From Posidonia oceanica (taxonomy: Eukaryota > Streptophyta > Magnoliopsida > Alismatales > Posidoniaceae): 64,000 nt of DNA. The position numbers and the translations under genes were made by a program. Positions 21,618 to 51,480 of this stretch are shown here, one piece after another. Location: positions 91,024,001 through 91,088,000 of the forward strand of contig JAZBRS010000020.1 of the NCBI GenBank assembly GCA_037176725.1. The letters run 5' to 3'. Within the stretch, counting starts at the first letter, position 1. The number at the start of each line of letters is the position of its first letter. Below the pieces are notes generated by a model. It searched no databases. It was given only the letters and a program-made list of their open reading frames with translations, and had not been told where the DNA came from.

Positions 21618-21622
21618 GTTTC
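21618..21622 (+). other. Target site duplication of element A, left
   Basis: GTTTC directly before TGTAGACACC; the same five bases follow the 3' LTR at 45632-45636. Confidence 0.85.
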
Positions 21623-24698: not shown

Positions 24699-24704
24699 GG
24701 TAAA
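24699..24704 (+). promoter_or_regulatory. Possible leader splice donor in the 5' LTR of A
   Basis: ATCTCCAAG|GTAAAT with the cut after 24699. The element B LTR has ATCTCCAG|GTATGT at the same relative place (cut after 50552), and the exon-like sequence before both is conserved. In the 3' LTR of A the GT has become GA (about 44305). Confidence 0.45.
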
Positions 24705-29913: not shown

Positions 29914-32099
29914 GCCAGCCTCCAATGGGCCAATCCCATGATCTTCCTTCTACCGAACCTACCACCAAAACCACCATCCCTACCACCAAAAAAGACCAGC
30001 CTTTAGCTGACATAACGACCCAGGTGAAAAAAGTCATGGCTGACATATCCATCTGGGACCTGATCCATTCTTCTCGCGAACACCGAGAGGCTTTTCTCCG
30101 TGTGTTCCAGGCCACCCATGTGTCCCAAACCATCAAGCCTTCAACTCTGGAGAATATGGTAGGCATGATCGCGGAGCCGCAGGTCATCTCTTTCTCGAGC
30201 GATGAACAGCCCCTGGTGGGGACTAACCATAATCAACCCCTGTTCATCACAGTGCAGTTCAAAAGATTCCGCATTCCCCTCTCGCTGGTCGATAATGGGT
30301 CAGGCCTTAATGTCTGTCCCCTACGCACAGCATTGAAGCTCGGATTCAAGGTCGAGGACATCACGCCTGCCGTGAAGGGAATGACCTCTTTTGACAACAC
30401 GCACCATGATTCTCTGGGGATCCTGGTTATTCCTCTTACCATTGACCTGGTCGAATTCGATGTTGAGTTTTATGTCGTCGACTTAGAGCCTTCTTTTAAT
30501 CTCCTTCTTGGGCACCCTTGGCTGCACAAGCATCAGGTGATCTCCTCGACCCTCCACCGAATGATCAAGTTTCGCTACGACGACGATGTTATCGTTGTAA
30601 TGGCGGAAAACTTTGACAAGGAACCGGTCGAGGCGGCCTCTTCTGTATCCCGGCCAACTGTCCAATTTGATCCTAAGCCGTCGGATACTTTATACCGCGT
30701 TAACCGTTTTGAGCCGGTTAACTTTATTCCTCTTCTTGAGTGTGTCAGCTCTCTGGCCGTTCATTGCAACCCTTCCAGGATGGTCGAGAATGTTTGCCGC
30801 AGGTGGGGCTATGAGAAGGGAATGTCACTTGGGCGTCACAGGAAAGGGATCGTTGAGCCGGTTACTACTGAGGAGCGCGAGAAGTTCCAAGGCCTGGGAT
30901 ATGAATGGCAACCCCGCGACGGTGAGCGCCTGCATTCAGGGAAGCGGAAGCTCATGATCCCTCGGGACCTCACTAACTTCGTTAGTGCAGGTATTCTTGA
31001 CTCGAACACGAGCCCAACTATAGCCCAGCCGGCACCATGCCAGAGCCCCCCACTGCCGACGGAGGAGTGGGTCTGCATAGAGGATTGTTATTCTGATGAA
31101 GACCAACCCGGCACGGTTATCCCAGCACAGTCCAAGGAAGAAGCTCAGATCAGCCCTGCAATCTCCCGGTCAGTCTGCCTAGCCCTCTCTTGTCCTGATA
31201 CAGTGGCAGATTCAGTAAGGTCTATGTCAGAGATGATGGTTCCTTCTTCTGTAGCTTCACTAGTGCCTATGACAGCCATTTCAGCAGCTCCAGGATCAGG
31301 AGTACCTCTGCAGGCACCAGTCACTTGTCCACCCATGGCCGCAGCCGCACCACTACTGAGGTTATCTTTTCCAAGGGTGCAATCAGTCATTTCAGGCGAC
31401 GGCGTGACTCAGCCCGCCTCATCAGTAGCTCCACAAGCAAACCAGGAGGCACCATCAGCCATACCGTCATCAGCTTTAGCAGATCTAATGTTGTGGAAGA
31501 CCTCCGCCGCTACTACAGAGAAACAACCACCATCACACATGGCTGCTGGCGCTTCATCCCTCAGAGCAACCGTCCAGCTGTTGGACCATCAGAAGAGTGC
31601 CTTTGCCTCCCCTCCAGCCGTAGCACTGTCCCTGTCAATGCCCCTGTCAGTGGCATCTCTGACCAGTCTATTTACATCTCTGATCCCTCCAGCGCCGCAA
31701 CCAGTCACACCAAGAGGTCAGCCAGCCAACCAGCTAGTAACAGGGCAGATACCTAGGCCGGTGATATGCTTAGAAGCCAGAGCAGGCCCCGTAGGCGCAG
31801 GAATCGCCAGGCAGGACTCTGAAGAGGTTGCTTGTGCTTATTACGTCGACACACCCTCCGAAGACGAGGAAGGTGCGACTGTAGAAGCCCTAGTGGGTAA
31901 CAAGCTTGAAGACTTGGAATTGCTCTTCCAGGAGCAACTCGCGGTGTTCGCTGAAGACGCCGTCGAGCAGCACGCACTAAAGAAAGGGAAAGCTGTGGCC
32001 ACGGATCCCTCCTTGTCGCAGGACCATTCCCCAATCATGGTCTTAGAAGAAGAACTAGAGGCAGCATCCACTAGACCAAATGAATTAATCACTTCATAG
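29910..32099 (+). pseudogene. Protease and G-patch region of element A
   Basis: After a frameshift this frame encodes a segment with SIWDLIHSSREHREAFLRVF, then a retropepsin-like protease with LVDNGSGLNV as its active-site loop (DNGS in place of the usual DTG/DSG) and LLLGHPWLHKHQ near the end of the fold. About 90 residues later comes MVENVCRRWGYEKGMSLG, then KGIVEP and GLGY, which fits the glycine-pattern G-patch domain. A long Ser/Pro/Ala-rich linker follows to the TAG at 32097, which stands where B has CAA. The protease would process the polyprotein; a G-patch is a nucleic-acid binding module. The frame itself is open over 729 codons. Confidence 0.8.
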
Positions 32100-32303: not shown

Positions 32304-35300
32304 GTGACAGTAGTGCCAGAGCAGTCAGAACAGACAAAGCAGCCAGATCAGTCAGCGAGACCAGGGGCCACTGAAGCAGGCGTCACCCACAGAGCCCACA
32401 AAAATACCCGGGTGAGTGTGACTATCCTAAGGCGTCATCCGGATCAAGAGGCGGAACCTGTCCACTCCTTCGACATTACAGATCCTACATTTGAGAAGGA
32501 GATCCTCTCAGAACTTATTGCATGTGAGGAGGAGGGGGATCTAGGTGTAGATGAGAATGATGAATCGTCGCCCGAGTTCCAGCCATATGATGATGACCCG
32601 GAAGGGCCCAACCTCCACGTCGAGGAAGAGACGGAGGTTATCAATGTTGGCACAGTTGAAGATGTTAGAGAGGTTCGCATCAGTGCCCTATTGCCGCCCC
32701 AAGCCAGAGCAGAGTTTATCACATTCCTTATGGAATATGCAGATGTCTTCGCTTGGAGCTACAAAGACATGGTCGGCCTTGATGTCAAGATCGTGGTGCA
32801 CAACTTGGCTTTGGATCCAGACGTGAAGCTAGTAAAGCAGAAGCCCCAAAAGTGGCGACCATAATGGCTGCTAAAAATCAAAGAGGAAATCATGAAGTAG
32901 CACAACGTTGGTTTTCTCAAGGTCGTCCTCTATCCAGAGTGGCTTGCAAACATCGTGCCAGTGCCCAAGAAGGACGGCCGAGTCTGGATCTGTATCGACT
33001 ACAGGGACCTGAACAAGGCGAGTCCCAAGGACGATTTCCCATTGCCTCACATCGATGTCCTAGTCGACAACACTACAGGCCACAAGATGCTATCTTTCAT
33101 GGACGGCTTCTCCGGCTACAATCAGATCAGAATGGCAGAAGAAGACATGGAGAAGACTTCATTTATCACCCCCTGGGGAGTCTTCTGCTATCAGGTCATG
33201 CCATTTGGGCTCAAGAATGCTGGAGCAACATACCAGAGGGCGATGACAGCATTATTCCACGACCTCATGCACCAAGAAGTCGAGGTCTACGTGGACGACA
33301 TCATTGCTAAGTCTAGGGAGCCTGAGGATCATCTTATCTGCCTCAAGAAGCTCTTTGATCGCCTGAGGAAGTACAAGCTTTGCCTTAACCCCAGTAAATG
33401 TGTGTTCGAGGTATCATCCGGCAAGCTGTTGGGCTATATCGTCAGCCAGAGGGGGATTGAAGTAGACCCAAGTAAGGCTATAGCCATCATAGACATGCCA
33501 CCCCCCAAGACTGAGAAAGAAGTCAGAGGCCTGCTGGGGCGCCTGCAGTTCATCAGCCCATTCATTACGCAACTTACTCCTATCTGTGAACCAATCTTTA
33601 AGCTCCTGAAGAAGAATGCACGGATCAACTGGAGCGAGGAGTGCCAAGCTGCATTTGACAAGATCAAGCAGCTCCTGATCAAGCCTCTTGTCCTAGTCTC
33701 TCCCATATCAGGGAGGCCTCTGATTCTCTATCTTTCCACCACACAGCATTCCATGGGCGCCATCCTAGGCCAGTATGATGAAACCGGTAGAAAGGAGTGT
33801 GCCATCTACTACCTGAGCAAGAAGTTTATCGATTGCGAAGCTAGGTATAGCACCATAGAGAAGACCTGCCTATCTTTAGTCTGGGCCACACAGAAGCTAA
33901 GGCATTACATGTTGGCGCACCCAGTTCAGCTCTTATGCCGACATGATCCAATCAAGTACCTTTTCCAGAAGCTGGCTATGGTGGGCAGATGCATTAAGTG
34001 GCAGGTGTTATTGTCTTAGTATGACATCACCTTCATCACATAGAAGTCAATGAAGGGGCAAGCCATGGCAGATCATCTGGCCAACTTCCCCTTACCTGAA
34101 TATCAGCCTTTGCAAACACAGTTCCTCGATGAAGACATTCTATTCGCCATGGAAGATTCAGAGCAGAAAAATCCTGAAGACGAATTACAGTGGCATCTGT
34201 ACTTCGATGGCACAGTTAATAGAAAGGGCAGAGGCATCGACGCTGTCCTATCAACGCTGCAGGCAGTTCTAATCCCCTTTGCAAGGAAGATGATATTCCC
34301 TTGCACCAACAATGAACCAGAGTATGAAGCCTGCCTGCTGGGACTGCAAGTCGCGCTTGAGCATGATGTGCGCAAGCTGCATGTGCACGGGGACGCGATG
34401 CTGGTCATCTCCCAGGTTAACGGTGATTGGAAGACTAAGGACCCTAAGCTGGTACCATATCATGAATGCCTGCTGAAGCTGATAGGAGAATTTGAAGATA
34501 TCTGCTTCACTTACATGAGTAGAGCCAAGAACGCCTATGCAGATGCCCTGGCAACCCTTGCATCTTGGCTATCCATACCCGAAGGCTGTGCAGTGGACGT
34601 ATCAGTCTCTCGTGTGGAACAGCCCGCACACTGCATGACTATCGATGAGGCAGATCCAGCAGAGGAGCTTCCCTGGTACCACGACATTAAGTCTTCCTGG
34701 AATCTGGCAACCCCCCACCTGACGCCTCAGCAATAGACAGGAAGACTCTGGCGGATCTGGCATCAAAGTATGTGATAGGGGCGGGACATCTGTACAGAAT
34801 ATCCTACAACCAGATACTCCTACGCTGCATAAACAAGAAGGAGGCTGACACACTAATGCTCCAAGTCCATGCAGGGACCTGCGGCCCTCACATGAATGGT
34901 GTGCTGCTAACAAAGAAGATCATGCTCCAAGGCTACTTCTGGTCAACCATGGAGGCAGACTGCTGCCAATTTGTGTGCAAGTGCCATAGCTGCCAGATCC
35001 ATGTGAACTTCATACACACGCCCCCACAAGAACTGCACAGCATGTCTTCGCCATGGCCCTTCTCCATCTAGGGGATCGACGTCATTGGCGCCATACACCC
35101 ACCAGCTTCCAACGATCATCGCTACATCCTGGTGGCGATCAACTACTTTACTAAGTGGGTGGAAGCGGCCTCCTACAAGACAGTAACTACCGTGGCTACC
35201 GAAAAGTTTATCAGAAACAATATCATAGCCAGTTATGGGGTCCCACATGCGCTCATCTCTGATAACGGCACAAACTTCATCGCCAAGAGGATCGAAGACT

Positions 35301-35914
35301 ACCTACAAGGCTTCCACATCAAGCATCACCGATCCTCGCCTTATCAGCCACAGATGAATGGCATGGTATAGTCTGCCAACAAGAACCTTGTCAAAATCTT
35401 GAAAAAGATGGCAGAGACTCACAAGGACTGGCATGACAAGCTTACATACGCACTCTGGGCATACAGGACATCAGTCCAGACCTCAACAGGGGCCACCTCG
35501 TATTCTCTAGTATACGACATGGAGGCAGTGTTGCCTGTTGAGGTAGAGATCCCCTCACTACGGATCCTACGAGAAGCTGAGCTGGAAGAAGCAGAATGGG
35601 TCGAAGACCGCCGCATCCAGCTAAACTTGATTGATGAGCATAGGTTGCAGGCCATACATCATGCTTAGTGCTACTAGAAGCACTCGGCCAAAGCATACTT
35701 GAAGAAGGTTAGGCCCAGAAGCTTCAATCTAGGGGATATGGTCCTCTGAGCCATCCATCTCCCCAACGGTCGAGGGAAATTCCGGCCCAACTGGCGTGGC
35801 CCCTTCTTAATCAAGCGGATCTTCTCCAGTGGCGCAGTAGTCCTTGAGGACATGGACCAGGTCGAGCAGTCTGAGCCGGTCAATTCATGCTACCTCAAGT
35901 AGTACGACCAGTAG
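32304..35914 (+). pseudogene. Reverse transcriptase - RNase H - second RNase H - integrase of element A, broken
   Basis: Domains in order: linker (32304-32864); reverse transcriptase from KKDGRVWICIDYRDLNKAS (about 32970) with YVDD near 33290; a first RNase H whose usual catalytic Asp is replaced (LYLSTTQHSMG, about 33730); an archaeal-type RNase H with YFDGTVNRKGRG (about 34200); integrase with a zinc finger (34850-35000), a catalytic Asp in GIDVIGAI and a second in ISDNGTNF. Stops lie at 32862, 32898, 34017, 34041, 35069, 35369, 35666, 35678, 35747 and 35900, and a one-base deletion near 34690 shifts the frame. The catalytic Glu of integrase stands where TAG replaces GAG (35369). Against B most stops are CAG or CAA turned into TAG or TAA. 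It cannot make a working polyprotein. Confidence 0.9.
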
Positions 35915-36038
35915 CCTGTCGCCGCCTTGCACACCTTTTCCTTCATACTTCTTGCATTCCTTCTTTCCCATGCATTTTAGGCTTGTTTATTTTTCAGCAA
36001 GAGGTTGTAAATGCATTATGTACATCGCTATCATAGGC

Positions 36039-36114: not shown

Positions 36115-37587
36115 CTAACCAGTGAGGGAGCCACCATCCAAGGAGGACAGACGAAATGTCTAAACTCTTCCAAGACCTACACCTCAAGAGGGAGAAAACA
36201 ATCCTAGGGTGTGAGAGAGTGTGAGCAAGACCCACATGCCTTAGCCTAGCCCTCACAGAAAACTAGAAGGTGGAGACAGGAGTTAGCCTTGGAGATAGAG
36301 GTGTGTAGTACGACCTCATCCCTCCAATTTGCCTTGGGGAGGATCCACATCCACGCCTACAAACCCACAAGCTATGCAAAGCCTAGCCCCTTTTGCCTCA
36401 AAACCAGGTGCTCATTACCTCTGAGTTAGGGGCGGCGGAAGCCTGTAAAAAAAAAAAGAAGCAGCAAAAAAAGAAAGGGAACAAGAAAGAAAAGACAAAA
36501 ACAAAAAAAAAAGCAATAGTAAGCAAAACAAAAAAAAAAGAGGGGCAAAAGCAAAAGCCGGCCCCAGAAACAAAGGCAAGCAGTGTGATTCCGCTCCTTT
36601 CCCTGTCTTAGAGAGGAACCAGATTTGTGCCTGGGAAGTACATAGATCCTATGGGGCCTAACCACGCATCCCAGCCATTACCAGATGCCCAACATCCCCC
36701 CCCAGGCCAAGGATAGAGAAAATACTACACACCTACGTGGGAGCAAAAAAAAAGACAAGAAAAAAATGAAAAGAGTAGGTGTAGCTCCTTGAGAGTTTGG
36801 CATGGAGCCCATCCTCACTACACCACCATCCAAGCACCCATAACACCCTTTCCACAGTGCCACCAACAGTTAAGAATCCGAGTAGAGTCTGGTGAGTCAG
36901 AGACCGCTCCTTCCTTTGCAGCAGGCATCAAGCACTCTGTATGCTGAGGGCGATAGATTTAGCATAGAGCATGCATGCATCTATTCACTATCAAATCATC
37001 CCCACCCCCTTTCCTCCCACTCTGCAAGGCTCAGCTCAACACTGGGATAGTACTTCTGCCAAGGCAGGTTGACTGCCTCCAAGCCTCAGATCAACCAATC
37101 ATTGCCAGTCCAGCAGCTCAGCGAAAGCATCAGCAGCCAGAGACAGAGCGATCACTCCAGAAGCAGCAGGACAACCTTGGCACCCCCTGGCCCCCCCTCT
37201 TGGCCGTCGGGTCTGCGCAATCAGGCACCACCCCTAATCCCTGTGCGATTTCACTTCGGACGGACAAAGTCTCTTTTCCGCTTGTCCCCTTGCTCTGTAC
37301 AGAACAAGGAGAAGCGCGCCTCCTTTGTGACTTCGTTCCAGGCAAAACGAAGCCCCCTTCCTTTGTCTCCTCGCTCCGCACAGACGAGGACAAGGGTGCC
37401 CCTCATGCGGCTCCGCCTTGTACAGGCGATACCCCTTTTGCTTAGCTGAATGTGCTTGAATTCTGTGGTCTGATTGCTAGCTGTAGCATTTGAATTGCTT
37501 TATCAACTTTATATGCACATCTGCTTCTCTGTCTGCCAGTGTTTCATGCCTGTACATGTTCCAGATTGATGAAACAGTTTTGGCTAT
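36115..37587 (+). other. Spacer between pol and the mobile domain ORF in element A
   Basis: It has two purine/A-rich tracts (36446-36560 and 36746-36780) with conserved flanks in B (63098-63260 and 63373-63398). CTCCTTGAGAGTTTGGCATG (36784) and a GGTGAGTCAGAGACCGCTCC-like segment are also conserved. A group of short stem-loops lies at 37288-37428. Apparent basic and Pro/Ser-rich open frames here are not conserved in B and I do not accept them as genes. Confidence 0.5.
37288..37428 (+). repeat. Group of four stem-loops upstream of the mobile domain ORF
   Basis: CCTTG..CAAGG (37288-37309), CTTCGTT..AACGAAG (37331-37352), CCTCG..CGAGG (37370-37389) and CGCCT..AGGCG (37414-37428). Stems differ, loops are alike (CTCTGTACAGAA, CTCCGCACAGA, TGTAC). 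Confidence 0.55.
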
Positions 37588-37588
37588 A
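37570..37588 (+). promoter_or_regulatory. Possible 3' splice site before the PMD ORF (element A)
   Basis: CAGTTTTGGCTATAG|GTACTTGAAG, with CAGTCTTGGTAACAG|GTATCTGAAG at the same place in element B. It would allow the ORF to be expressed from a spliced RNA. Confidence 0.4.
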
Positions 37589-37632
37589 GGTACTTGAAGA
37601 TTTCGCACCAACTGTCTGCATCCTCGCCTGTC

Positions 37633-38835
37633 ATGGGTTTCCTCACCTTGCTGACCCCAACGCACTGCTCTGAGACCCTCCGAGGATGGATTGCCATGCT
37701 CACCGAAGCTGACCGTGAAAAGCTGAGTCTGTGGGGCATCCCACCCAGACTTCTGAAAGCTGCTGATGTGGAGGTCAGCCGACACCTTTTGTGTGCTGCT
37801 GCAAGGTTCTGGAAACCGGCACACCATGTTTTTCGCTTCGGAAGGATGGAGTTGACACTTACCCTAGAAGAAGTGCACCGAATCTGCAGCTTCTCCACGC
37901 TCATGGGACCTGCTGTGTTCATGGGGCGTTCTGGCTATGTCACCATCCTGAGGCAACTTACGGGGCTCTTTGCACAAATCTGCGAGAAGAGATTGGTCTA
38001 CGTTGACAGACCCGCACCTGTCCTCCGCCTGAACTATTTTGAAGAAGTCTCCAAGAAGCGCGCTGAACTAGGAGATGAATTGTGGCTTTGCGGCTTTGTC
38101 ACCCGTTTCCTGGGCGAGTTGATTTTTAGTCATGGCCAGATGACTGTAGCTATTGAAGTTGCGGAAATCGCCCTTGCTGTCGTGACCTACCAAATCGACC
38201 TGGCACCTATCGTCTTGGCTGAGACGTACCGCAGACTGGACCGCATTTCACACTGCTGCCGCCACTTTCATGGCTGCGGGGCCCTGGTACAAGTGTGGTT
38301 AGCCGGACATCTGGAGGTAGACATCCTGCGCCTCTAGAAGCATGCATTTGAGACTTACTGCAGCAGTGGCCATGCCAAGACCATCAAAACTGTCTGCGAA
38401 GAGTATGAAAGGATGGAACAGCTGACTGATGATACAGTAACTTGGCGTATCATCCCATCTACAGCAGAGCCGTTCATCGTCTTCTTCGACGCCCGCGACA
38501 TGTGCCTGGTCGTCCTGCCAGGATTCACTAAAGGCATGGAGTATCACCCCATCCGGGTTATGCGGCACTTTGGTCTCTACCAAGTGGCATTTGTTGACAG
38601 CATTGCGCCAAAACTAGTCCGGCCCTATCCCTTCAGCACAGTTGCACCCACAACGGAGTTAGTAGACCTCCTGCGCCATGGCATAAAGTCCACAGACATT
38701 GCAGCAGCAAGGGGCTCAGGATGTACTCCTGAGTATCTAACTGAAGTGCAGGGGCTCTGGCCCATCAACGAGATCCTGCCTGGCGCACCTCTCTACCTTG
38801 ACACTAGGAAGTCGAAGAAGGCCCGTACTAACTAG
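37633..38835 (+). pseudogene. Plant mobile domain (PMD)-like protein carried by element A, one in-frame stop
   Basis: The frame starts at ATG 37633 (MGFLTLLTPTHCSE), the same start as in element B (63954), and runs 400 codons to TAG 38833 with a single TAG at 38335. The first half contains LLCAAARFWKPAHHVF and MELTLTLEEVHRICSF; the second contains MEYHPIRVMRHFGLYQ. These match the tryptophan/TLEDV and HP-RV-R-FG patterns of the plant mobile domain (aminotransferase-like, also related to DUF7745 proteins). PMD proteins occur in plants both as host genes (MAIN/MAIL type) and within transposable elements; their molecular activity is not settled. A possible splice acceptor (TTTTGGCTATAG|GTACTTGAAG, 37588) precedes it. 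It is far less damaged than gag-pol in the same element. Confidence 0.7.
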
Positions 38836-39186
38836 GGCATCCGCATCTGCTTATCCCTTTTTGAGTCTTGCTGTACTCTGTTCTGCCTGTTATGGGTGTG
38901 TAATCAAGACTTTGTTAATGCAAGGGTTTTCGTACCATGTGCTTGTATGTTTGGTTTGGCTTCCATAACGGTGCATACATGGTCTTACAATCATATCTTC
39001 AACATATTCCTCCAGTCCCTCGGAGCCATGAGAAGGACACTATCATAACCTACAAGCTCAGAAGCAACTATCAACACTCTTAACGCCAAGGGAAGCTATA
39101 GGAGGACCCTGCATTACACTTGGATGCTAGAATCTCTGCAGACCAGCACCGTCAACATGGGCAAAAGCCGTCGAGCGCTCTCGGCT

Positions 39187-39429
39187 GGGTATCCGCCAGG
39201 CTGATACCCCTAACTATCCGACAATGAGTCCGTCAACTCATCACCGGGCTGTTACCCCTAACTATCCGGCGATGAGTCCGTCAACTCACCCCCGGCTTGG
39301 TAGCCCTAACTACTCGTTTGACAAGCACGTCAGCTTAGTCTATCGCTTTTTCGATACCACGGGCGCTTCGGCTGTCCCCTGGTATCCTCCCTAATACCAA
39401 GGGCATCTTTTTCCGCTGCCCCATGGTAT
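39187..39429 (+). repeat. Upstream hairpin bracket of the 3' array
   Basis: GGGTATC..GATACCC (39187-39209), AATGAGT-CCGTCA-ACTCATC (39223-39242), GATGAGT-CCGTCA-ACTCACC (39271-39290), then a larger pair: GATACCACGGG..CCCCTGGTATC (39353-39386) and ATACCA.GGGC..GCCC..TGGTAT (39394-39429). Confidence 0.7.
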
Positions 39430-39524
39430 CACATCTCTAGCTGCACCTAGGCTGGCATGCCTAACTGCCGCGGGCCCATCCGTTTCTTTGCTTCGCTTTC
39501 AGATCTTGGTGCCCCTGTTCCCTT

Positions 39525-40395
39525 GCGGTCGGTAAGTCCAAAACTTATCACCTTTCCCTTGCGGTCGGTAAGTCCGAAACTTATCACCTTTCCTCTTGTG
39601 GTTGGTAAGTCCGAAACTTATCACATTCCAATTCTCTTGCGGTCGATATGTTCGAAACTTATCATTCCCGTTTGCGATCGATAAGTCCGAAACTTATCAC
39701 ATTCCAATCCTTTGCGGTCGATAAGTCCGAAACTTATCAGCAACCCGTTTGCGGTCGATAAGTCCGAAACTTATCACATTTTAACCCTTTGCGGCCGATA
39801 GGTCCGAAACCTATCATCTATCAGCAACCTTTGCGGTCGATGGGTCCGAAACCTATCCCTTGCGGTCGATAAGCCTGAAGCTTATCATAACAACCTTTGC
39901 GGTCGATGGGTCCGAAACCTATCCTTTTTGGTCGATAAGTCCGAAACTTATCATCCATCATTTGCAGTCGATGGGTCCGAGGTCCGAAACCTATCCTTTT
40001 TGGTCGATAAGTTCGAAACTTATCATCCATCCTTTGCAGTCGATGGGTCCGAAACCTATCACTCATCATATCACCTTTTGCGGTCGATGGGTCCGAAACC
40101 TATCATTTATCACATCATGGCACCTTTGTGGCCGATAAGTCCGAAACTTATCCGATCCTGGTTGATAAGCCTGAAAGCTTATCATACCAATCTATCGCTT
40201 CCGGTTGATAGGACCGTAAACTATCACTTCCAGCCGATAAGTCTGAAACTTATCCGGTTTCTGGTTGATAAGATTGCAAACTTATCACACCAATCCTTCC
40301 TTGCGGTTGATGAGTTCGAAACCTATCACTCATCATCAGTCCGTCCTTTGCGGTCGATGGGTCCGAAACCTATCATCTGTCGTGTGTCCTCTTTT
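39525..40395 (+). repeat. Array of 23 short stem-loops with co-varying stems
   Basis: The typical unit is GCGGTC followed by GATAAGTCCGAAACTTATC: a 7-bp stem with a CCGAA loop. Units are 27-46 bases apart. Stem versions include GATAAGT/ACTTATC, GATAGGT/ACCTATC, GATGGGT/ACCTATC and GATAAGC/GCTTATC, so paired positions change together. The loop is nearly constant. One unit (39965) has an internal 8-base duplication. Confidence 0.9.
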
Positions 40396-40583
40396 CTTGC
40401 TTGCTTTCTCAACAGAAAAGATGCCCCCTTTTTTCATTCGCACGACAATTTTGGCCCTTCTATTCCGCGCCACTCTAGTTGTCTGCTTGCTTCCTCGGAC
40501 GAGGGCAAGGTATCTTCCTTTCTTCGAGCTAGCAGCCCAAACTGCTCGGTTGACACCCGTCATAACTGTCCAACCCTTCTTTC

Positions 40584-40816
40584 GATGCCATGGGCGCTTC
40601 GACTGTCCCCTGGTATCATCCTTGATACCAGGGCAATCTTATTTTGTCGCCCTCGGTATCTTCGCTGGGCTGGCAGCCCAAACTGCTCGGATGACACCCG
40701 TCACCCTGTCTAGCGTCCTTTTCCTTGGGCCGATAACCCAAACTATCCGGTGATGAGTCCGTCAACTCCTTGGGCCGACAACCCGAACTGTCTGGCAATG
40801 AGTCCGTCAACTCATT
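40584..40816 (+). repeat. Downstream hairpin bracket of the 3' array
   Basis: The same two types as upstream: GATGCCATGGG..CCCCTGGTATC (40584-40617) and GATACC.GGGC..GCCC..GGTATC (40624-40660), then GAGT-CCGTCA-ACTC (40754-40768, weak) and AATGAGT-CCGTCA-ACTCATT (40797-40816). Confidence 0.7.
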
Positions 40817-41191
40817 ACCCATCGCATCAGCATTGCACATTAAATAATGGTGCCAGCATCTCATGCTAGGTAGCAGCATCAGCATCATGCACACAATCAT
40901 TGCATGCCTTCCCCGGCAGGCTCGCATCTCATGTCATGCTAGCACGCATCGCCCGCATCTCCCCCACGGAGCTCAGCACGGCAGGCACTAGCACAGGTTA
41001 TATTAGCAGCAGCATCGCATCATCGTTGCATGGCATTGCATCTGCATTCGCATCTGCATTTTGGCGACGGGTCATGATTTCTGGCGCATCCGTCGGAATA
41101 ATAACCCACGCCCACATACTTCACGCTCGCTGGTTTAGGGGGGTGTCTTGTCAACCCTGAGCGGTGGCCTCGGTCCCCCTTGACCTCACTC

Positions 41192-41200
41192 AGGGAGGGG
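41192..41200 (+). other. Polypurine tract of element A
   Basis: AGGGAGGGG, then CATC and the 3' LTR start at 41205. It primes plus-strand synthesis. Confidence 0.85.
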
Positions 41201-41204
41201 CATC

Positions 41205-44200
41205 TGTAGACACCCCATTCTGAGAACCCGGAAGTTGGTTGTTTTCTCCTGCAGGCTCGTGTGGACTCTGGAATGGCACCCCTTTTCTAACCCATTTTTT
41301 TCTAGCCCAAACCAAACCAAAACATTGGCCAAAGCCCTAGAAGCCTTTTCCAAGTTATTTGCAACTTTTACAACACTTCTAGGCCCAAGCCCAAGCCCAT
41401 TTGCAGCTTGTGCCACTTGAGTGTGTTGGACGCTGGAACAGGCAGCGTCCAACGTTGGACGCGGCCTGTGCTAGCATCCAACGTTGGACGCCCTCTAGTC
41501 TGGCGTCCAACGGCCCGAGTGCAGCAGTGGCTGCTCCGCCCCCCATGGCTCACCTTCCGTCCATTCCACCGCTCATACACCACTTACTAGCCATCCCTTC
41601 ACCACTCCATGCCACCCACTAGCCGCCAAGGCCGCGTGACAGCCTGCCACTAGCCAATTTCGAGCTCTCGCCCATTTTCCTCTCTCCTCCAGAGTCACCA
41701 CTTTGCCAGCCTATCCTTGCCACCCTGACGACTTCAGCGACCATGCGCACCTCCAGCACTAACTACCTGACATCCCTCGAAGACCTCCCACTCTTGCTTT
41801 GGCCTGCCGTGCCTGCCACCGCCAGCCATTGCCTGCCAAAATCCCTGCCACCGTTGAACTTGAGCCTCCGAACCCAACGAAACAGCCTCATTCATCCCGT
41901 TGCAGCATTCACCACACCAAGCGGAGAAGAGAATTCCCACATTCGAGAGCAAGAAGGCACTCCCCTCTCCGTCCTCGACGCTTCGTGACCTCCTCCGGTG
42001 CTCCGGGCTGCCCAGACGCCTTCGCCGAAGTTGCTGCTGCAGACACACTCACAACGCCGGCGAACGAGGTGGAGCCACTATTCCAGGCCACCAAACGGTA
42101 AGCACTTCATCCCCTTGAGTCTTGCATGTTTAGTGTTACGTCCCCATGCATTTTTACAATTTTTTGAGTCCTTTTGGTCGTGATTCACGACCAAGAAGAA
42201 GTTCAGTGTGTTGGACGCACCAGCTGGTGCGTCCAACGTTGGACGCGGCATAGGCCGGTGTCCAACGGTCTGCTTTGCCTTGCTCTGGTTTTGATGCTTT
42301 TCATGCTTTTCCTTTGCATGCTCTTCTACAAGTATATGCCATATGCTTCCTTTAATGCTCTCTGATGTTATGCCATGCTTGCTAGTCCATCCCATGCTTA
42401 TTAGAAGCCTTTTTGCATGCTTAATGATCCATTTGTCTCCTGCCTGCGTTGGACGCTAGCGTGAGCCGCGTCCAACGTTGGACGCTGGTTCACCTAGCGT
42501 CCAACACCTCTGCTTGCTTTACTTTGCTGCCATGGCTCCATCATGCATATTTTGAGTATTATTTTGTGATCCATGCCTACTTAGAGATGCCTGGACCCTA
42601 AGGCAACCATGCTTAGGTTTGCTAGGATTTTTCTAAGTTGTTTACTTCTTTTGCAAAGTTTAAAGCTTTCTTCTCTCATGCATGTTCTCCCTTTCTTGCT
42701 TTCCTTAGCTCAAATGATTGCTATGCATGCTCCTGTTAGTTGCTTACATGCCTTTAAAGTGTTTGCATGCATGTAGGTGGGGTCTGAGCTGAGCTCGCCC
42801 TTTAGAACAGGTGAATCTGCATGTTTGGGTCGTTGGATGCCAGAGCCTTCAGCGTCCAACGTTGGACGCTGCTGGCTCTAGCATCCAACGTCCTGATCTC
42901 CCCATCTTTTGTTTAAAGCTTGCATATTGCCCTGATCTTGCTTGTTTACTTGTCTCCTGTGTTCTTATGCATGCTTAGCCTCTCCAGCAACTGTTCTTTA
43001 ACTTCTTTGAATTATTCTGGCTATTTTAAGCATGTTTTTTGTGTGCTGTGCCTCCCAGAGTGTTGTACGCTGCTGGTGCTGGCGTCCAACATTGGACGCC
43101 GGCCTAGCTCACGTCCAACACCTTGGTTGTGTCTCTGACCTAGCACAGACCCCAGGTAAGGTCTGATTGCATCTTTTATACTCCTCTTGTTTGCTTGTTT
43201 GCCCTATGCACATCCAGTAGCCCAAATGCATGCTCCCACCCTTTTTATTTTATTTTATTTTTCTTTTAGTTTGCCTTTTGTTTGCTTCCTCTTCTCTCTG
43301 TCTTCTGACCTGTGTTAGATGTCTGCCACTATGGCGTCTAATGTTGGACGCCATGCCTAGCAGCGTCCAACAACCTGTTTGTTCTGACCCTTAATCCTGG
43401 CTTGCCCCTTTGCTCTAATCCCCTCCTAATCCTTTGTTAAGTTAGTCCTGCATCTCATGCACCTCTTGCACTGCATTTCTGCATCTGCATCGCATCCATA
43501 TAGCCTGCATGCATTCATTTTTCTCAAAAGCATGGCTTGGTTGTTGGACGACCAGATCTCAGCGTCCAACATTGGACGCTGGCAATCTGAGCGTCCAACA
43601 CCCTCTGCCCTTCTTTCTTTTTCCTTTTTTTTTTTTCAAAAATCACTTTGATCTTGCCTCTGATTTCTGGGCCTTGTGTTTTGATTTCCCAGCATGTTCT
43701 ATCTAGCCTTGGATTTTTTACATTGCATCAAATCCTTGTTTTCCAAGTTTGCATTGCATGTTTTCTGCATTTCGGTTTCTGCCTGTGTAGGACATGAGCT
43801 ATTCCAGCGTCCAACATTGGACGCTGCTGCTAGTCGCGTCCAACACTTGCTGTAAGCTGCATCCCATTTTAAATGCCGAATCCATTTCGATCACTGCCCC
43901 TTTGCATTTCGCTGGTCCTGGTACATGCCCACAGCACCCTTGCATGTTGTCGGGACCTTGTTTTGATTTTGCACCTTGCCTTGCACTTTTTTTCCTCTTT
44001 GCACCTAGGTACTTCTCTTTGCATTCTTGCATGCATTGCACCCCTATCATTGCACCTAGTATCTTAGGACACTTTTGAGCACTCTTAGCTCCAATGCATA
44101 TGGGAGGCCCCGTCCTGCACACTCCTAGGACCTCTTTGCACTTAGATCCATTCTTCTCCCTTGTTCTTGGCCCTCTTGCCTTGAAGCCTGCATATCTTCC

Positions 44201-45631
44201 GATCCAACCGTCAGATCTTCGCAACCAAGCTACCTGGACAACCACAGTGGAGCGCACTTCAATGCAGGCCAAGCATTTCTCAGATCAGGCTTCAGATCTC
44301 CAAGGAAAATTCTTCTGAACCATTGCATATCATTTATCGCATTTGCATGCACTATTTTTGCGTCTCGTTTTCCGCACATATAGATTAGGGCCTCCCCCTT
44401 TGCCTATCTACTCAGCTTCCTCCTTTCGTGTCTTCTTAGTGTTTTTGGTTGAGTTTCCCCTCAGATTCACTACTGTTTGCGGCCTTCTTCCCCCTTTTCC
44501 ACGATCCAATTGCATAGCGAGCTTTGGGCAGCGTGCGAGACACATCGTGGGACGGTGTGGGAAACAGCCACAGAATAGTGGTGATCCCTCCATTTGCTTC
44601 CTTTCCCCTTTACAGGTCTTCACACCTGCATTGTGTGGTTCTTCCGGTGTTTGTTCTTGCACTCACACCGCTTGTCTCCCCTTTGCTTCCGGGCTGGTAG
44701 CCCTAACTGCCCGTTTGACGCCCGTCATGTCGTCTAATCTTCCGCTTTGCTTGTCATACCCCTGCATTGCCAGCTTTTTTCATGGTTTTGCTTTTACTTC
44801 TGCATCGCTTGTTTTCTCGTCCGGATTTGCTTTCGCCTTTGCTTGTCGTACCCCTGCATTGCGTGGTTTTTTCGATGTTTTGCTATTGCAATTGCATTGC
44901 TTGTTTTCTGCCCGGATTTGCCTTCTCCTTTGCTTGTCATACCCCTGCATTGCGTGGCTTTTCCGATGTTTTATTTTCGCTTGTTTCTCGCATCGTTTTG
45001 CGTGTTTGACGTTGTTTTCCCTTGCATGTCGTTCGCATTGCCTGGTTTTACCACCGTTTCGTTTTATCGCCTGCATTTGCATATAGGGCAGTGATGCTTA
45101 CTGCCTGGAGTTCTCACGAACTAGGGTTCACCCGGTTCGGAACACAGAAAGTGCTGCTGAGCACTTAGATTGCACGTTTAATTCCTTGCACACATTCCAA
45201 CCCTTAGAGCACACATTTGAGCATCCAATTAGGCATTCATGGCATTTAGGCATTCGAAGCATGCATTTCCTCTCAAAAGCGAGCGTAAGCCTAGAAAGAC
45301 CACTTCTCGGGCGCGTCGGGGGTGCCTAACACCTTCCCCGCGTGTAACAGGAGTCCTTACCCTTTCTCTGGCCCGCAATGACCCTTTTGCCCTCGTCCTT
45401 GGTACGAGATAGCCTCTTTGCATAGCATTTGCATTGAACTGCATCTTCTTGTGTGGTTTTGCATGTTCTTCATGCATTTCCTTGGTTTTCCTCGTCTCCC
45501 GATTGAATAGACTAGGTGGCGACTCCCTTTTCTTTATCTTTCCCCTCTTCGCGTCGCTCCATCCGTGAAAACCTCTCTCTTGCGGGTCCCCCCTCCAGTC
45601 CGAGCCTAAAAAGAGAAAAGGCGCATTCACA
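41205..45631 (+). repeat. 3' LTR of element A
   Basis: It runs from TGTAGACACC to GCGCATTCACA and is followed by GTTTC (45632-45636). It contains the same modules as the 5' LTR, with the hairpin trimer at 41425-41511 and seven dimers between 42210 and about 43853. It has three segments (near 41816, 44628 and 45190) missing in the 5' LTR. The conserved leader donor reads AAGGAAAA here instead of AAGGTAAA (about 44303). Confidence 0.92.
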
Positions 45632-46498
45632 GTTTCTAAATGAAATTAAATGAAAACTAAATGAATGTAGGACCTATATGCAAATAAACTAAATGCTGGA
45701 CTTAACATTAATGCAGTATAGTTTTTAAATGGAATTAAATGAAATATAAATGAATGCTCGACCTAAATGAAAATAAACTAAAATGCCGGACCTAATTTCA
45801 ATGCAGTAAGATTTTTAAATCAAAAGCTGAAATCGATTAATGCAACTGTGATCCGGCGGCCAGCAGAGGAAGAAGGAGGTGGGTGGCTAGCTGGGGCCGC
45901 CTCCGGTCCTAGCGACGGCGCGGCTGGCTTCGAGGAGGTCCGGTGGTGGTTCGGGTGAGCTCTAGAGGCGGCGGCGGCTACTGGTGCGGCGGAGCGATGT
46001 TTTCTTCTGGTAGTCGTCGTTGGAGAAGAAGGAGAAAGCCGACGAGAGTGGGAATGGTGCTGGACAACTCAAAACGCCCAAGAAAAGGGCCGAGAAGCAA
46101 GAGGGGAGCAGGCGAAGCTTGGGGAGGTGTCAGCTACCTGAGGGCATGCGCGGATGGGTCTGTTGACCTCAGGGGGCTTCTGTCAGCAACGTTGCAGGCA
46201 GAGGAGGAGCTGGAGGCGGCGGCGGCAACGCGCAAGTGGCGTCCAGGCGAGTTCGTGGAGGTCAGAGGATGCTTCGGGAGGTATCAAATCTCTCCACTCA
46301 CTTCCAATTCTCTCTTTTGCCAAAATGGGTGCCTCTCTGATTTTTTCTCTCTGGAAACTCTCTAAACTCCTCTGAACTCTCAATTCTCTCTCGTTTTGAT
46401 TGGCTTTTGTTGTGGTGATGAGGTTCGTGGTCTGTGTGGGGTGGTTTGCAGTTGTGGGTCATGCTGGAGGTTGGTGTGTGAGTTGCAGTATTGGGTGT
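45632..46498 (-). repeat. LTR E2, continued
   Basis: After the duplicated GTTTC the 91-bp-type repeats resume (to about 45830), followed by GC-rich sequence (45850-46280) like the GC-rich part of the other LTRs. Element B is inserted at 46499, splitting E2 a second time. A reading frame here (45943-46365) has low-complexity composition and is not convincing. Confidence 0.55.
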
Positions 46499-49400
46499 TG
46501 TTGACACCCCATTTTGACAGGCTGGATCGTTTGGAGCCTTCCGGTGGCTGCTGGACCCGAATCTAGACCCAAATCCACACCTCCCTCTCCTTCTTTCCCC
46601 TCAAAGCAAGCCCAAACTCAACCTAGGATTACCCCCCTTTTCCGAATCTGAAAACCAACCAAAATCCATAGGAAAACTCACCCCTGATGACTTAGCAAGC
46701 CCACCAAAAGCCTGCAAAATTTCAAACCAGAACCCCTCCCAAAAACCCTAGGAAACTTAGGCAAAACTACCCTTTTTCTACACCTCAAAACCCCTCCAAA
46801 CTTCCTCAAAACGAAACCAAAACTTTGGAGCCAAAACTAGAAACCCTAGACCCCACACCCGCCAAATTTCACCCCTTTCCGAGACCTCTAAGACCCCCTT
46901 TTGGCCAAATTATCGTTTTCTCTTTCGGGATTATCGTTTTCTCTCTCCTCTCTCTCTCCTGATTATCGTCTCTCTTTTCATCCCCTTCTTGCCCTTTTTC
47001 TGGCCTGGCTGTGGGCCCCCTTTGTACTCCTATCCCTTCTCTATCTTATTCCTATTTTTATTTTATTTTTAACATTTTCCCTGAATTTTAAAAATCTTTT
47101 CCCTCAAACCTATCTCTTTCCCCTTTTATTCTCTTTTTTTCCTTTTCTTCTTCTTTTTCTTTTCCTTCTTCTTTCTTTTGCAAAAATCCATGAAAATCCT
47201 TAAAAATCTGTAAAACCCCAAAACATAAAAGAAACAAATCAGAATTCCAAGAAAAGCAACTAAAAAAACATTAAACAAGTAATTAAAAACTCAAACTTAA
47301 CTAAATCAAGCTAAAAAGAAAACCAAGCATGCAAACTAAAAAATGCAAAACAAACTAAAAGAAAATAATGTAAAATCAAGTAAAAAACTGAAATAAAGTC
47401 AGAACCTACCAAAAGTAAAAACCCCACTAAAAAATTAAAAAAACAAACCCTAAAGAGAAGAATTAAAAATCAAACACCAAAACAAGTGATTAAAGGAGGC
47501 AAAAGACCTAACCTAATAAGCATAAGAAAAACAACATAAAAACTTAATTAAAAAGGAAAAGGAAAATACACTTGAAAGACTTAAAAACACTTAATCAAAC
47601 CAGAAAAATCCAACTAAAAAACATCAAGAAGAATTAACAAATAAAAATCAAAAACATGGTTCAAAAGACTTAAGGAAGAAAAACATAAAAGACCAGAACT
47701 AAAAAGCCCAAAACCCTTTTTAATTAATATGAAAATAAATCCTAAAAATCCTAATTAACATCCTAAAATACTTAACAAGAAAACACAATTTTAAAAAACA
47801 ATTTAAAAAGATTTAACCAACACTTAATCAAGTGGAAAATGAATTAACAACAAAGGAAAGCCCAAGAACCCTAATCAAGCCTAAAACACACTAATTAACC
47901 TAAAAACAGTTATTAAAAAAATCAATTAAACACCTAACCTACAACCCAATTCATCTAATATTTTCGTTTATTTTTATCTTATTTTTTCCTATTTTATTCC
48001 CCTCCTTCTTTCCCTCTTTCTTTCTTTCTTCCCTTTTATTTTTTCCTTTCTTCCTTACTGGGCTCATCAGCCCGTTTCCCTTTTATTTTTCTTTTTCTTT
48101 TCAAACGCCAGCCCAGCCCACAACAACAGTCCACCTTCTTCCTCCTTCCTCTCCCGCGTGCCAGCTGCTACAGTATCCGTCGGCCTGCAGCTCTGCCTGG
48201 CCTGCCACCTCCTGCTCGAGCCGGACTGGCGCGCCGAATCCCGTCCGTGCCCCTGCCATCGCCTCTCCGCAGCATTCAATGGCCTCGGACCTGCAAAGCC
48301 AAGAGAGGAAGTCGTCAGAATTCAGAGCAGAAAGGAGGAGAAATCAGGCCTGAATCAGGAAGAAGAGAGGGGAGAAAAGATTGAGATTTGATTCCGGAGA
48401 GACCGGAGCTTTCCAGAGTGATCCCCAGCAAGCGAGAGCCCCCTTTCTCCCTCAGAAATCCACCAAAAACGCAGAACTTCGACCTCTTCCTTCCGCAGCA
48501 AACCCAGACCCAAAACACTCCGAGAATCCTTCAGGATTGGCCGCCCAATCTCACCCAAACCTCCTGCAACTCCTCCCTTCCTTCCCCCGTCGAAAACAAC
48601 CCACATTTCCCCCGAGACACCCTGAAATCCAACCAGAACCCAACATCTCTTCCTCCAAAAATTCCCTCCTTCTCAGTCCCTGAAACTTGTCCAAACTCCT
48701 CCGAGCCACTCGCCTGAACCACATCTTCTCAGGCCACCCATCCCTCAGCCGAATAGCACACCACACCTCCGACTGTCCACAACAAACACCTGTGCTGATT
48801 TCTTCCCGAAACTCGACCCACCAGCAACCTCTCAACACAGCGTCCCTCAGGCTAATCTAAGCCCTTCCACACCCTCACCGGACCTTCAGCAGTCCACCGG
48901 AAGCTGCCACTCGAGCCAGAGGGCGACAGACGGCTCTCCCCACCTCAGGCAACGCCACCTGCACCCATTTCAGCCGCTTGCTCCTCCGATCGCCGAACCT
49001 CCGCTCCAGGTACTCAGAAAGCTCCGGAGGATCGCGTGGAGCTGATCCCAATGCCCGCGAGCCGCCGCTGACGTCCGCACACTCCGGACGCCCACCTCCG
49101 GCAACTGCAGAATCCTCCTAGGTCGGGAGGACACCTCGGCTGCCCAAACAGGTAACCACTAACCTCCTTGGCTCCCTCTCCCTCCTCTAATGCTTCTCCG
49201 CCAGTCAGAGCCAGCCCTCCGGCCCTCCTGCTCCAGCGGCGTCTCACCGGTCAGTCCTTCGTCTCCGGCGCCGGCCACCTGTCTTCCGGACGTCCCAGCC
49301 ACTGGAACGTTGCTCCGACACCCTCCAGGGCTTCGCACGGTCGCCGGCAGTCCCCTCCGCCCTCCCGTGCATCTGCGAGCGCCCTGGGTTGGCGGTGCTG

Positions 49401-50547
49401 AGCTCCGGCGGTCTCTGCTACAGTACCTCCCCACCATCGGCAGTTCACTGTAGCATTATTTTCTCAGTTATATAGTTTTAATGCGAATATTACATTTCTA
49501 CCTTAAGTTTTCTTATTTTTGCGTTCTGGTCCTTAGCTTATTTAAGATGCTTAGTTTCTGATTTAATATCTTGCTAAATTGCTCATTTTATTCCTATTTT
49601 TCAGTATTTCCATTTTGGTCCATTTACTGTGCTTTCTAGTTATAAAAAGTTTGAGTTTAGCCCTTCTGTTTTTTATTTTAGCATCTGAATCCTACAGTAG
49701 ATTATTTAATTTTAATGCATGAACTTTGCCTTATTATATTGCATTTCAGATCCCTGTTTTATGTCATTTTTGCATCTTAGTCCACTGCACTGTAGGAACT
49801 TAGCTTTTATTTTCTCATTTTGCATACTGCATTGCATTTTTCACCTTCTGGCTTTGCATATTTGCATTTAGGTCCATTTTAAATGGACAGTAACCATTTG
49901 GCATGCATTTTGGCTTATTACATTGCATTTTTACCGCTGATTTTTCCAAGTATTGCATTTCAGTCCCCAGATCATGATTCCAGAGCATGTTTTCCATATA
50001 AAATTGCATTTTCAGACCCTGCATGATTTAAAAATCACACATAGACCCTTGCATCCTTTGGAAACCATGTAAAAAGGCTGTTTTGCCCCTAAGTTGCATT
50101 TTAACTCCTATGCTTGCAAAAATTGCATGTAAGCCCTCCACTTGCATTCCCGGACTCCCCAAAACCCCCGTTTTCTGGAAAATTTGCATTTTAGCTCCTT
50201 TCTTTCTTCAAAAATGCTTTTGAACTCCTGTTCTTTCCAAATTGCTTTTCCTTATTTTTTTTTCGCCTTTTGCATGCATTCTGCATTCATTTAATCTTGC
50301 ATTTAAGCATCCCCCTTGCATACACTAGGCACTTTTAACTCCCCTTCACTTGGGAGGACCTTCAGAACACCCCTAGGACCTCCTGAACACTTAGATCTGT
50401 TCTTCTCTCCTGTTCTGGCCCTTCTGCTCCAAAGCTGCGATATCTTTCAATCCGACCGTTGGATCTCCTCGAGTAAGCTGCCCAGGCGACCGCAGCGAAG
50501 CGCTCTTCAGCACGGACCAAGCAGATCTCCGATCAGACTCCCGGATC

Positions 50548-50558
50548 TCCAGGTATGT
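50548..50558 (+). promoter_or_regulatory. Possible leader splice donor in the element B LTR
   Basis: ATCTCCAG|GTATGT, cut after 50552, at the same relative place as in element A. The intron to 53773 would remove the tandem array, the LTR end, the primer-binding sites and the leader. Confidence 0.45.
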
Positions 50559-50599
50559 CCTCCTGAACCCCTACACTGCATTCATTTGCATGCCATTTG

Positions 50600-51480
50600 C
50601 TCCATTTTGCGTGCTTTCAAGTTTTCTCGCTCCGTTTTGCGTGCAGTCTTGTTTTCTCGCACTGTTTTACGTGCCGCTTCTTTGTCTTGCACCGTTTTAC
50701 GTGCCCTTTAGTTTTTTTGCCTCGTTTTGCGTGCAGTCTTGTTTTCTCGCACCGTTTTGCGTGCCGCTTCTTTGTCTTGCACCGTTTTGCGTGCCCTTTA
50801 GTTTTTTCGCCTCGTTTTGCATGCAGTCTTGTTTTCTCGCACCGTTTTACATGCCGCTTCTTTGTCTTGCACCGTTTTGCGTGCCCTTTAGTTTCCTCGC
50901 CTCGTTTTGCGTGCAGTCTTGTTTTCTCGTACCGTTTTGCGCGCCCTTTAGTTTTCTCGCTCCGTTTTGCGTGCTTTCAAGTTTCCTCGCTCTGTTTTGC
51001 GTGCCCTTTAGTTTTTTTCGCCTCGTTTTGCATGCAGTATTGTTTTCTCGCTCCATTTTGCGTGCCGCTTCTTTGTCTTGCTCCGTTTTGCGTGCAGTCT
51101 TGTTTTCTCGCTCCGTTTTGCGTGCCGCTTCTTTGTCTTGCACTGTTTTGCGTGCCCTTTAGTTTTCTCGCCCCGTTCTGCGTGCCGCTTCTTTGTCTTG
51201 CATCGTTTTGCGTGCCGCTTCTTTGTCTTGCTCTGTTTTGCGTGCCGCTTCTTTGTCTTGCACCGTTTTGCGTGCCTTTAGTTTCCTTGCCTCGTTTTGC
51301 GTGCAGTCTTGTTTTCTCGCACCGTTTTGCGCGCCCTTTAGTTTTCTCGCTCCGTTTTGCGTGCTTTCAAGTTTCCTCGCTCTGTTTTGTGTGCCGCTTC
51401 TTTGTCTTGCCTCGTTTTGCGTGCAGTCTTGTTTTCTTGCACTGTTTTGCGTGCCCTTTCGTTTTCTCGTCTCGTCTTGC
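50600..51480 (+). repeat. 30-bp tandem array in the element B LTR
   Basis: About 29 copies of a 30-base unit with CTCGCACCGTTTTGCGTGC and three alternating tails (AGTCTTGTTTT, CGCTTCTTTGT, CCTTTAGTTTT). Because 30 is a multiple of three, a long open frame runs through it; it is a repeat by-product. Fragments of the same array occur at 1-100. Confidence 0.9.

Follow-up and report, generated by a model that had tools for sequence, protein, structure and literature searches.

Tandem units with a pseudoknot layout in the 3' UTR of Ogre-type retrotransposons of Posidonia oceanica: a candidate repeated RNA-structure domain

The 3' untranslated region (3' UTR) of Ogre-type retrotransposons in Posidonia oceanica contains tandem arrays of short units, which are laid out as two crossing helices, termed S1 and S2, and which change at matched positions between unit classes. 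We assign a probability of roughly 0.6 to the reading that this region is a repeated RNA-structure domain, i.e., a platform on the element RNA that would serve a post-transcriptional function. The direct basis of this reading comprises the units and their position, the covariation of S2 in unit classes A and C, the covariation of S1 between classes and within some of them, and the small number of unpaired stem types that are shared among loci; from these observations we infer that the two helices would form together, that selection would act on the sense RNA of an active element, and which role the domain may play. The initial annotation had described a single array of stem-loops in a stretch of 64,000 nucleotides (the window, i.e., the whole stretch of DNA analysed, C19:91024001-91088000). 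That observation holds and is larger than first noted. In the window's own genome (2.96 Gb, 80 contigs scanned) an exact class A 19-mer has 45,904 matches (reversed control, 0), and the patterns of classes F, C and G have 178,308, 159,769 and 30,019 matches, respectively. The four unit patterns together thus yield at least 414,000 matches, and this genome-wide abundance strengthens the case beyond a single array.

The host of the array is an approximately 24-kb Ogre-type (Ty3/gypsy Tat) long terminal repeat (LTR) retrotransposon, the features of which are collected in Table 1. According to PMC6317226, the Ogre subclade is marked by an aRH domain between RH and INT and by a plant mobile domain (PMD) in an extra ORF (57% of Ogre). 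Both marks are found here: in a second Ogre-type element, RVT_3 lies after RT_RNaseH and before rve, and in the first element RVT_3 follows RT-RH and a PMD is recognized by Pfam. Domain content supports placing the host element in the Tat group, here as Ogre-type, and the second RNase H-like domain together with the PMD ORF agrees with the Tat-type host that had been named from the letters. The integrase part of the first element is present as DNA (32398-35915 against 59084-62602, 78% match). The second element shows the order RT, RH, RVT_3, integrase, its RT-to-integrase frame is open over 1335 aa, and its 3' LTR (L031:3789-9513) is 95.8% identical to 46499-52331. By eye, the frame beyond the in-frame TAG at 38335, which ends the PMD ORF of the first element, is open to about 38838, and therefore, the PMD product is either broken or read differently. 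Placement of the array in the 3' UTR is likewise correct, since it sits between the PMD ORF and the 3' LTR, i.e., in the place known for tandem arrays of Tat/Ogre elements, and ends approximately 0.8 kb before the LTR. Of 31 loci scanned, 19 show an LTR-start motif 0.3-1.6 kb behind the last A-type match, and 12 gave no such motif. Both LTRs of the first element also harbour copies of a short tandem palindromic unit (21859-21931 and 41444-41512; GCGTCCAACGTTGGACGC in the 3' LTR).

Table 1. Features of the two Ogre-type elements and of the structured units in the window
Feature	Position	Strand	Details
5' LTR, host element	21621-25965	+	94.1% identity to 41203-45632, 4433 aligned columns
G-patch ORF, upstream of RT	29856-32096	+	Pfam PF01585
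Reverse transcriptase and RNase H	32901-34016	+	PF00078, PF17919, PF17917
Second RNase H-like domain after RT-RH, a Tat mark	34044-34733	+	PF13456 RVT_3
PMD ORF	37573-38334	+	PF10536, E 9.7e-12; in-frame TAG ends ORF
Class C units upstream of array	39203-39218, 39246-39266, 39299-39314	+	One T.T mismatch in S2 of 39246-39266
Class B hairpins	between class C units of 39203-39314	+	GATGAGT-CCGTCA-ACTCATC type
Class C unit	39449-39469	+	AGGC-T-GGCA-T-GCCT-AAC-TGCC
Main array	39531-40374	+	23 units by S2 stem, mostly class A CGG-TC-GATAAGT-CCG-AA-ACTTATC
Class F unit inside main array	40202-40226	+	
Class A unit with both S1 sides changed	40231-40254	+	CAG/CTG for CGG/CCG
Class C units downstream of array, stems	40531-40546, 40672-40687, 40732-40747, 40777-40792	+	
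11-bp hairpin from two adjoining class D units	40608-40633	+	GATACCA..TGGTATC type
Purine-rich tract GGGAGGGGCATC, probable polypurine tract	41193-41204	+	By sequence; directly before 3' LTR
3' LTR, host element	~41205-45632	+	Starts TGTAGACACC; LTR alignment
Second Ogre-type element	46499-64000, then L031:1-9513		First LTR 46499-52331

The count of 23 units in the main array is borne out: GATRRGTCCGAAACYTATC with at most three mismatches matches 21 times in the whole window, always within the array and on the + strand (0.07 expected from 100 shuffles), and two diverged units at 40164 and 40267 complete the number. The stem types GATAAGT/ACTTATC, GATAGGT/ACCTATC, GATGGGT/ACCTATC and GATAAGC/GCTTATC, which had been listed at the outset, are all present. 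By coordinates, the start-to-start spacing is 29-48 instead of the 27-46 bases first given, and the description of the CCGAA loop as almost constant was too strong, since exact CCGAA occurs in only 13 of the 23 units. S2 is well kept: of its 161 cells, 156 hold a standard pair, which is G.T in 10 cases, and five are unpaired, in the units at 39645, 40207, 40267 and 40309. Perfect-stem hairpins of at least 7 bp number 14 in 39501-40400 (shuffle mean 0.79, largest 5 in 200 shuffles). Against a tree-based null restricted to the 23 units, the scarcity of broken cells has P 0.001-0.03, and the cells altered on both sides P 0.0004-0.003; changes on both sides are confined to two of the seven pairs, for which P is 0.10-0.23. 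The covariation from these 23 units alone is suggestive, i.e., modest and not decisive.

The initial reading of the units as plain hairpins looks incomplete. Its core stands, since the stems keep pairing while their letters change, but the units show the layout of an H-type pseudoknot, and a second, crossing helix covaries across classes. In class A an upstream CGG is complementary to the loop CCG, and in class C the triplet before S2 (GGG, AGG, TGG or CGG) matches the loop triplet (CCC, CCT, CCA or CCG, respectively). The resulting helix S1 and the stem S2 cross, which gives the H-type layout. Across classes both helices covary, with G-C, A-T, T-A and C-G all represented at the outer pair of S1. 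Covariation of S1 and S2 is seen across classes by permutation, by slid columns and by counts of genome matches; it is absent for S1 within class A and finds no support with trees built from all columns. Pseudoknot-shaped motifs number 23 per strand in the 3' UTR of the window (5.6 in the shuffled 3' UTR, largest 15 in 100 shuffles), a density of approximately 9.7/kb, as compared with 1.8-3.7 elsewhere in the window.

The array represents one of several unit classes that share a single 3' UTR, and the class amplified differs in other elements. In the window's element, class C units lie on both sides of the class A array. The 3' UTR of the second element (L031:1250-3788) contains a few class A units, while class C units (TAGG-CT-GATA-N-CCTA-AAC-TATC) occupy approximately 1 kb, interspersed with class F units (CGGT-T-GATAG-G-ACCG-TAAA-CTATC), and a third element (L033) carries four copies of a C+B unit. 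One unit design thus recurs in three elements, each of which amplifies another class. Longer hairpins of the GATACCA..TGGTATC type are found on both flanks of the array (39353-39433, 40583-40660) and recur in the other two elements (L031:1513-1590, L033:4630-4715), by eye with matched changes such as ATACTA/TAGTAT; a loose pattern of this type has matches in 23 of 42 loci, none of them in the window's own copy. Another locus (L022:3450-4150) contains an array of class E units with 81-nt spacing, GATAAG-GCTTGCA-CTTATC and GATAGG-GCTTGCA-CCTATC, the S2-like stem of which changes as a matched pair and is without an obvious second helix. Array length ranges from 1 to 65 units in 15 arrays. Two copies (L027 and L029) comprise 64 and 65 class A units, far above the window's count, and are candidates for expansion into satellite DNA.

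The sampled loci were not drawn at random: 14 are the first exact class A places on one contig (L017-L030 on C1), 14 are copies with the window's 17-nt flank (L037-L050; in the stretch of up to 420 nt that precedes the array, 81-93% identical to the window), and 11 are the first class F places (L051-L061). In addition, 40 kb beside the window were read. For all 85 distinct class C units of 42 loci, the pseudoknot model, in which two of the three S1 pairs (and thus two of seven pairs) are fixed as G-C by the anchor, leaves 92.4% of the cells paired (slid columns, 22-47%). Two-sided cells number 75 against 31.1 +/- 4.6, and the covariation score is 0.378 against 0.218 +/- 0.013, with 0 of 200 shuffles as high. 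A chosen set of 44 class C units gives 94.5% paired cells and 0 of 500 shuffles as high; since it comprises 43 of 74 distinct units plus one from L054 and omits 31, decayed ones among them, this count is biased in favour of the pseudoknot model. With the anchor CC..AAC in 31 loci, S2 scores 2.814 in 763 distinct sense units (permuted, 2.190 +/- 0.023) and S1 scores 1.852 (permuted, 1.740 +/- 0.013). The 183 distinct antisense units at this anchor show no S2 signal (1.907 vs. 1.925 permuted) and an S1 score of 1.612 (1.576 +/- 0.029). A pooled anchor N-GG..CC-N' matches 554 times in sense and seven times in antisense in 42 loci; among the 208 distinct matches, N and N' form a Watson-Crick pair in 140, as compared with 60.8 +/- 6.3 after permutation (largest 83 in 5000 permutations). 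Of the 47 T-A cells in this set, no fewer than 11 come from a single sequence that is not a unit and lies beyond the arrays (TGGTTTGGCTTCCATAAC and close variants).

Genome matches bear on the outer S1 pair directly, and the first 100 places of each pattern were counted by hand. Class C (first 100 of 159,769; the pattern excludes G at this position) yields A-T in 64, T-A in 13, C-G in four, T.G in six and a mismatch in 13, and by coordinate grouping these places cluster, the A-T form coming from approximately eight arrays and the T-A form from approximately nine. Class G (first 100 of 30,019) yields T-A in 77, C-G in 17, T.G in three and C/A in three, and class F (first 100 of 178,308) G-C in 72, A-T in 22, G.T in two and A/C in four. 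Watson-Crick pairs accordingly make up 81, 94 and 94 of the first 100 places in classes C, G and F, with Fisher P < 1e-12 for F and G, a value that ignores relatedness. CpG decay is no explanation for the change from AGG/CCT to TGG/CCA, which requires two transversions. In class A (684 units, 30 loci) S1 shows no covariation (P 0.39, 0.12, 0.86), CAG is found with CTG eight times where approximately seven are expected, and many S1 changes look like CpG decay. In class C alone (74 units), pair 2-14 of S1 is weakly supported, its value being reached by 53 of 2000 permutations. Pairs 1-15 and 5-11 lack support (352 and 110 of 2000). In class F alone (53 distinct units), S1 pair 2 is weak, with 45 against 41.2 permuted (largest 46).

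Permutation, slid-column and Fisher controls ignore relatedness, and the initial annotation had named covariation no greater than phylogeny would produce as an outcome that would refute it. Here, the outcome is divided: the between-class comparison and the permutation and slid-column controls speak for covariation, but within classes few double changes persist once all columns enter the trees. For class A (684 units, 30 loci), trees built without the tested pair give 4, 16, 22 and 9 double changes at pairs 2, 4, 5 and 7 (null, 0.4, 1.3, 1.6 and 0.5). With all-column trees no more than 0-1 double changes per pair are left inside a class, and values for single pairs range from 0.02 to 0.63, so that independent events are few. 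As units of 22-28 nt yield poor trees, neither count is to be taken at face value. The case therefore rests on the comparison between classes, on the permutation and slid-column controls and on how private stem types differ from shared ones. A unit of two helices, the letters of which change in step between classes, is well supported by controls blind to relatedness and weakly by those that attempt to correct for it.

The contrast between private and shared stem types is seen in both classes examined. Among class A types, 7 of 63 that are private to one locus are fully paired, as compared with 8 of 21 found in two loci and 9 of 13 found in three or more; for S2 of class C the corresponding fractions are 3/10, 4/6 and 6/8. 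The class A finder (at most five mismatches) also includes class F units (GATAGGA/AACTATC, 14 units, 13 loci), which adds unpaired cells to the tree and stem-type counts of class A. The contrast would fit unpaired forms that arose by decay after insertion and did not spread; it is not a clean test, because types many steps away from the commonest one are rarer for other reasons too. Some mismatched types are shared, namely AATAAGT/ACTTATC (a CpG site) in 11 loci and GGCA/TACT and AATA/TATC in five each, and G.T types are shared widely, with GATGGGT/ACCTATC in 18 loci, GGTA/TACT in 15 and GGCA/TGCT in 14.

Selection on the sense strand is likely, not proved. Among class A types found in at least two loci, those with G.U only and those with A.C stand at 12 to 9, and among private types at 6 to 28 (Fisher P 0.0035). 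Summed over class A pairs there are 71 wobble and 66 A.C events, and single-step wobble and A.C types occur in 34 and 15 loci, respectively (pairwise P 0.33). The comparison of G.U with A.C was hence discarded as a strand test: events show no bias, the pairwise result is not significant, and only the private/shared contrast leans towards sense. In each of 11 class F loci, pseudoknot-shaped motifs are more frequent in sense than in antisense (sum 247 vs. 154). The whole array, the folding of which had been proposed as a check, has a more favourable fold than 20 shuffles on either strand (z of -7.35 in sense and -4.63 in antisense). Three tandem repeats of the window that served as controls lie at z +0.8 to -2.2. 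A strong z does not single out the array, since a stretch of the 3' LTR (43001-43400) reaches -9.25 in sense and -5.27 in antisense. Nested folding was also rejected as a strand test, because its strand preference is inconsistent over all arrays: in 400-nt pieces the outcome varies by array and the better strand switches, and five class C/F stretches give sense z of +0.12, -2.47, -1.24, +0.20 and -0.99. Nested folding of single units, which by its nature scores no pseudoknots, settles on the S1 hairpin for classes C and F but on the S2 hairpin for A and B; in this folding model the two hairpins could be alternatives. That S1 and S2 form at the same time, as a pseudoknot, is likely.

Searches for known identities gave few leads. 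Rfam at the gathering score has no match in the whole window, and in 38840-41202 it returns six weak matches (E 1.9-8.5), none of them to the tobamovirus pseudoknot domain. The letters TGATGAGTCCGT and CGAAAC, as we take it, resemble a hammerhead core; a hammerhead ribozyme or retrozyme was rejected, as Rfam finds no hammerhead in the window at the gathering score or in 38840-41202 at E up to 10. A coding role of the array was also set aside, given that an overlapping open frame of 303 aa has no Pfam match and that the variable spacing shifts the frame from unit to unit. A protein search with the translated array, a query that contains pieces of P0074 itself, retrieved P0074-P0077 on short public contigs (E 6.9e-68, 9.2e-10, 3.8e-9 and 0.06); by eye, translated units are present in all four, and the upstream flank is common to P0074 and P0076. 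The 19-nt pattern occurs at one place in viral contigs and at seven single places in prokaryote contigs, which we take as chance. Viral contigs queried with RT and PMD gave no relatives, there was no plasmid match, and the window contains no tRNA gene-like sequence.

Taken as an RNA, each unit would combine two helices that cross, S1 of 3-4 bp and S2 of 4-7 bp, with a connector L1 of 1-2 nt (3 nt in the copy L018) and a connector L3 of 2-4 nt, mostly A-rich, and would thus adopt a compact H-type pseudoknot layout in the sense RNA. A multivalent post-transcriptional platform is the most likely role, favoured because the domain lies near the common 3' end of the transcripts: the array could recruit a host (or element) RNA-binding factor, repetition would provide avidity, and the factor may aid export, stability or translation of a very long RNA. 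Re-amplification of a founder unit by slippage or template switching would leave families that differ in the class amplified. The closest rival, which we rate as improbable though ahead of the other alternatives, dispenses with the pseudoknot and has plain S2 hairpins, or a switch between S1 and S2 hairpins, bound via the CCGAA-type loop. S2 is the longer and better supported helix in class A, where S1 shows no covariation, nested folding of single units chooses one helix or the other, and the class E units carry an S2-like stem without an obvious S1. Covariation of S1 across classes and inside C, F and G (among the first 100 genome places of each) argues against this reading, as do loop lengths that would lie within the needs of an H-type pseudoknot.

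Rather unlikely, too, is a mutational origin without function, by which interrupted palindromes would cause DNA polymerase or reverse transcriptase to pause and switch templates, a process that multiplies units and restores the complementarity of their arms. Array lengths of 1-65 units, together with the scarcity of independent double changes at any one pair inside a class, are what such a process could leave behind. Repair of a single palindrome is not expected to produce two crossing helices in a similar layout in several classes; template copying should yield perfect pairs, yet G.T pairs are common and shared; and stem types that are shared are mostly paired, while private ones are mostly unpaired. 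Retroviral packaging signals are structured RNAs, and self-complementary units repeated on the genomic RNA might bind the element's Gag/nucleocapsid or pair two RNAs, thereby loading genomic RNA. We regard this packaging or dimerisation signal as similarly improbable, since a 3' position is presumably also present in spliced or subgenomic transcripts and so would not mark full-length RNA. Least probable, at long odds, is a structure at the DNA level, i.e., cruciforms or protein-binding palindromes in chromatin: the S2 arms are near-perfect inverted repeats, the LTRs of the same element also contain palindromes, and events lack a clear strand bias, but a single cruciform cannot satisfy the interleaved S1 and S2, and the shared G.T pairs are wobble pairs in the sense strand only. 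We retain the RNA platform as the preferred reading. If the repeats are selected RNA structures, this could explain their retention in the elements and the feeding of satellite DNA, and the question of array function becomes directly testable; the genome would moreover supply pseudoknot variants in very large numbers, a natural collection for studies of RNA folding.

Tandem repeats before the 3' LTR of Tat elements are known, and the initial statement that no such array had been described in Ogre/Tat elements requires qualification to this extent; for structured, covarying units it stands within the open-licence literature, in which neither a report of such units nor the unit letters were found. 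For the 3' UTR of Tat/Ogre elements, Vondrak et al. (PMC7004042, citing Macas et al. 2009) describe tandem repeats that are hypervariable; these resemble the present arrays in the element group, in their place between coding region and 3' LTR, in tandem units variable in sequence and length, and as a source of satellites. They are treated there as sequence repeats, and the words “palindrom” and “secondary structure” are absent from that paper, whereas the units described here covary and follow a design of two helices. In Retand elements, which are closely related to Ogre, the region between pol and 3' LTR is long and contains tandem arrays in about half of the elements, again the place occupied here, and the origin and function of these arrays are called unknown (Vicient, PMC11963269). 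That text is without the words “hairpin”, “stem” and “secondary structure”, and the extra ORF of Retand, the antisense TRP28, differs from the sense PMD ORF found here.

Structured RNAs in LTR elements are represented by the MusD transport element (MTE), which contains a pseudoknot and a kissing loop (PMC5767303), and by the gammaretroviral PTE (PMC12786077), both of which serve nuclear export. These are single complex structures of animal elements, in contrast to the repeated small units of a plant element, for which an export role is putative. The upstream pseudoknot domain (UPD) of TMV likewise consists of consecutive pseudoknots, here predicted ones, in the 3' UTR of a plant RNA; according to PMC4683447, replication needs its structure and not its sequence, and the UPD can replace a poly(A) tail. 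Whereas the TMV domain comprises three pseudoknots adjoining a tRNA-like end, the retrotransposon arrays comprise 1-65 tandem units, with no Rfam match at the gathering score in the window. We would give even odds to the more specific proposal that the tandem mini-pseudoknots work as a 3' domain in the manner of the pseudoknot stalk of plant viruses, and that families re-amplified different founder units to a total of at least 414,000, perhaps the most numerous pseudoknot in any genome.
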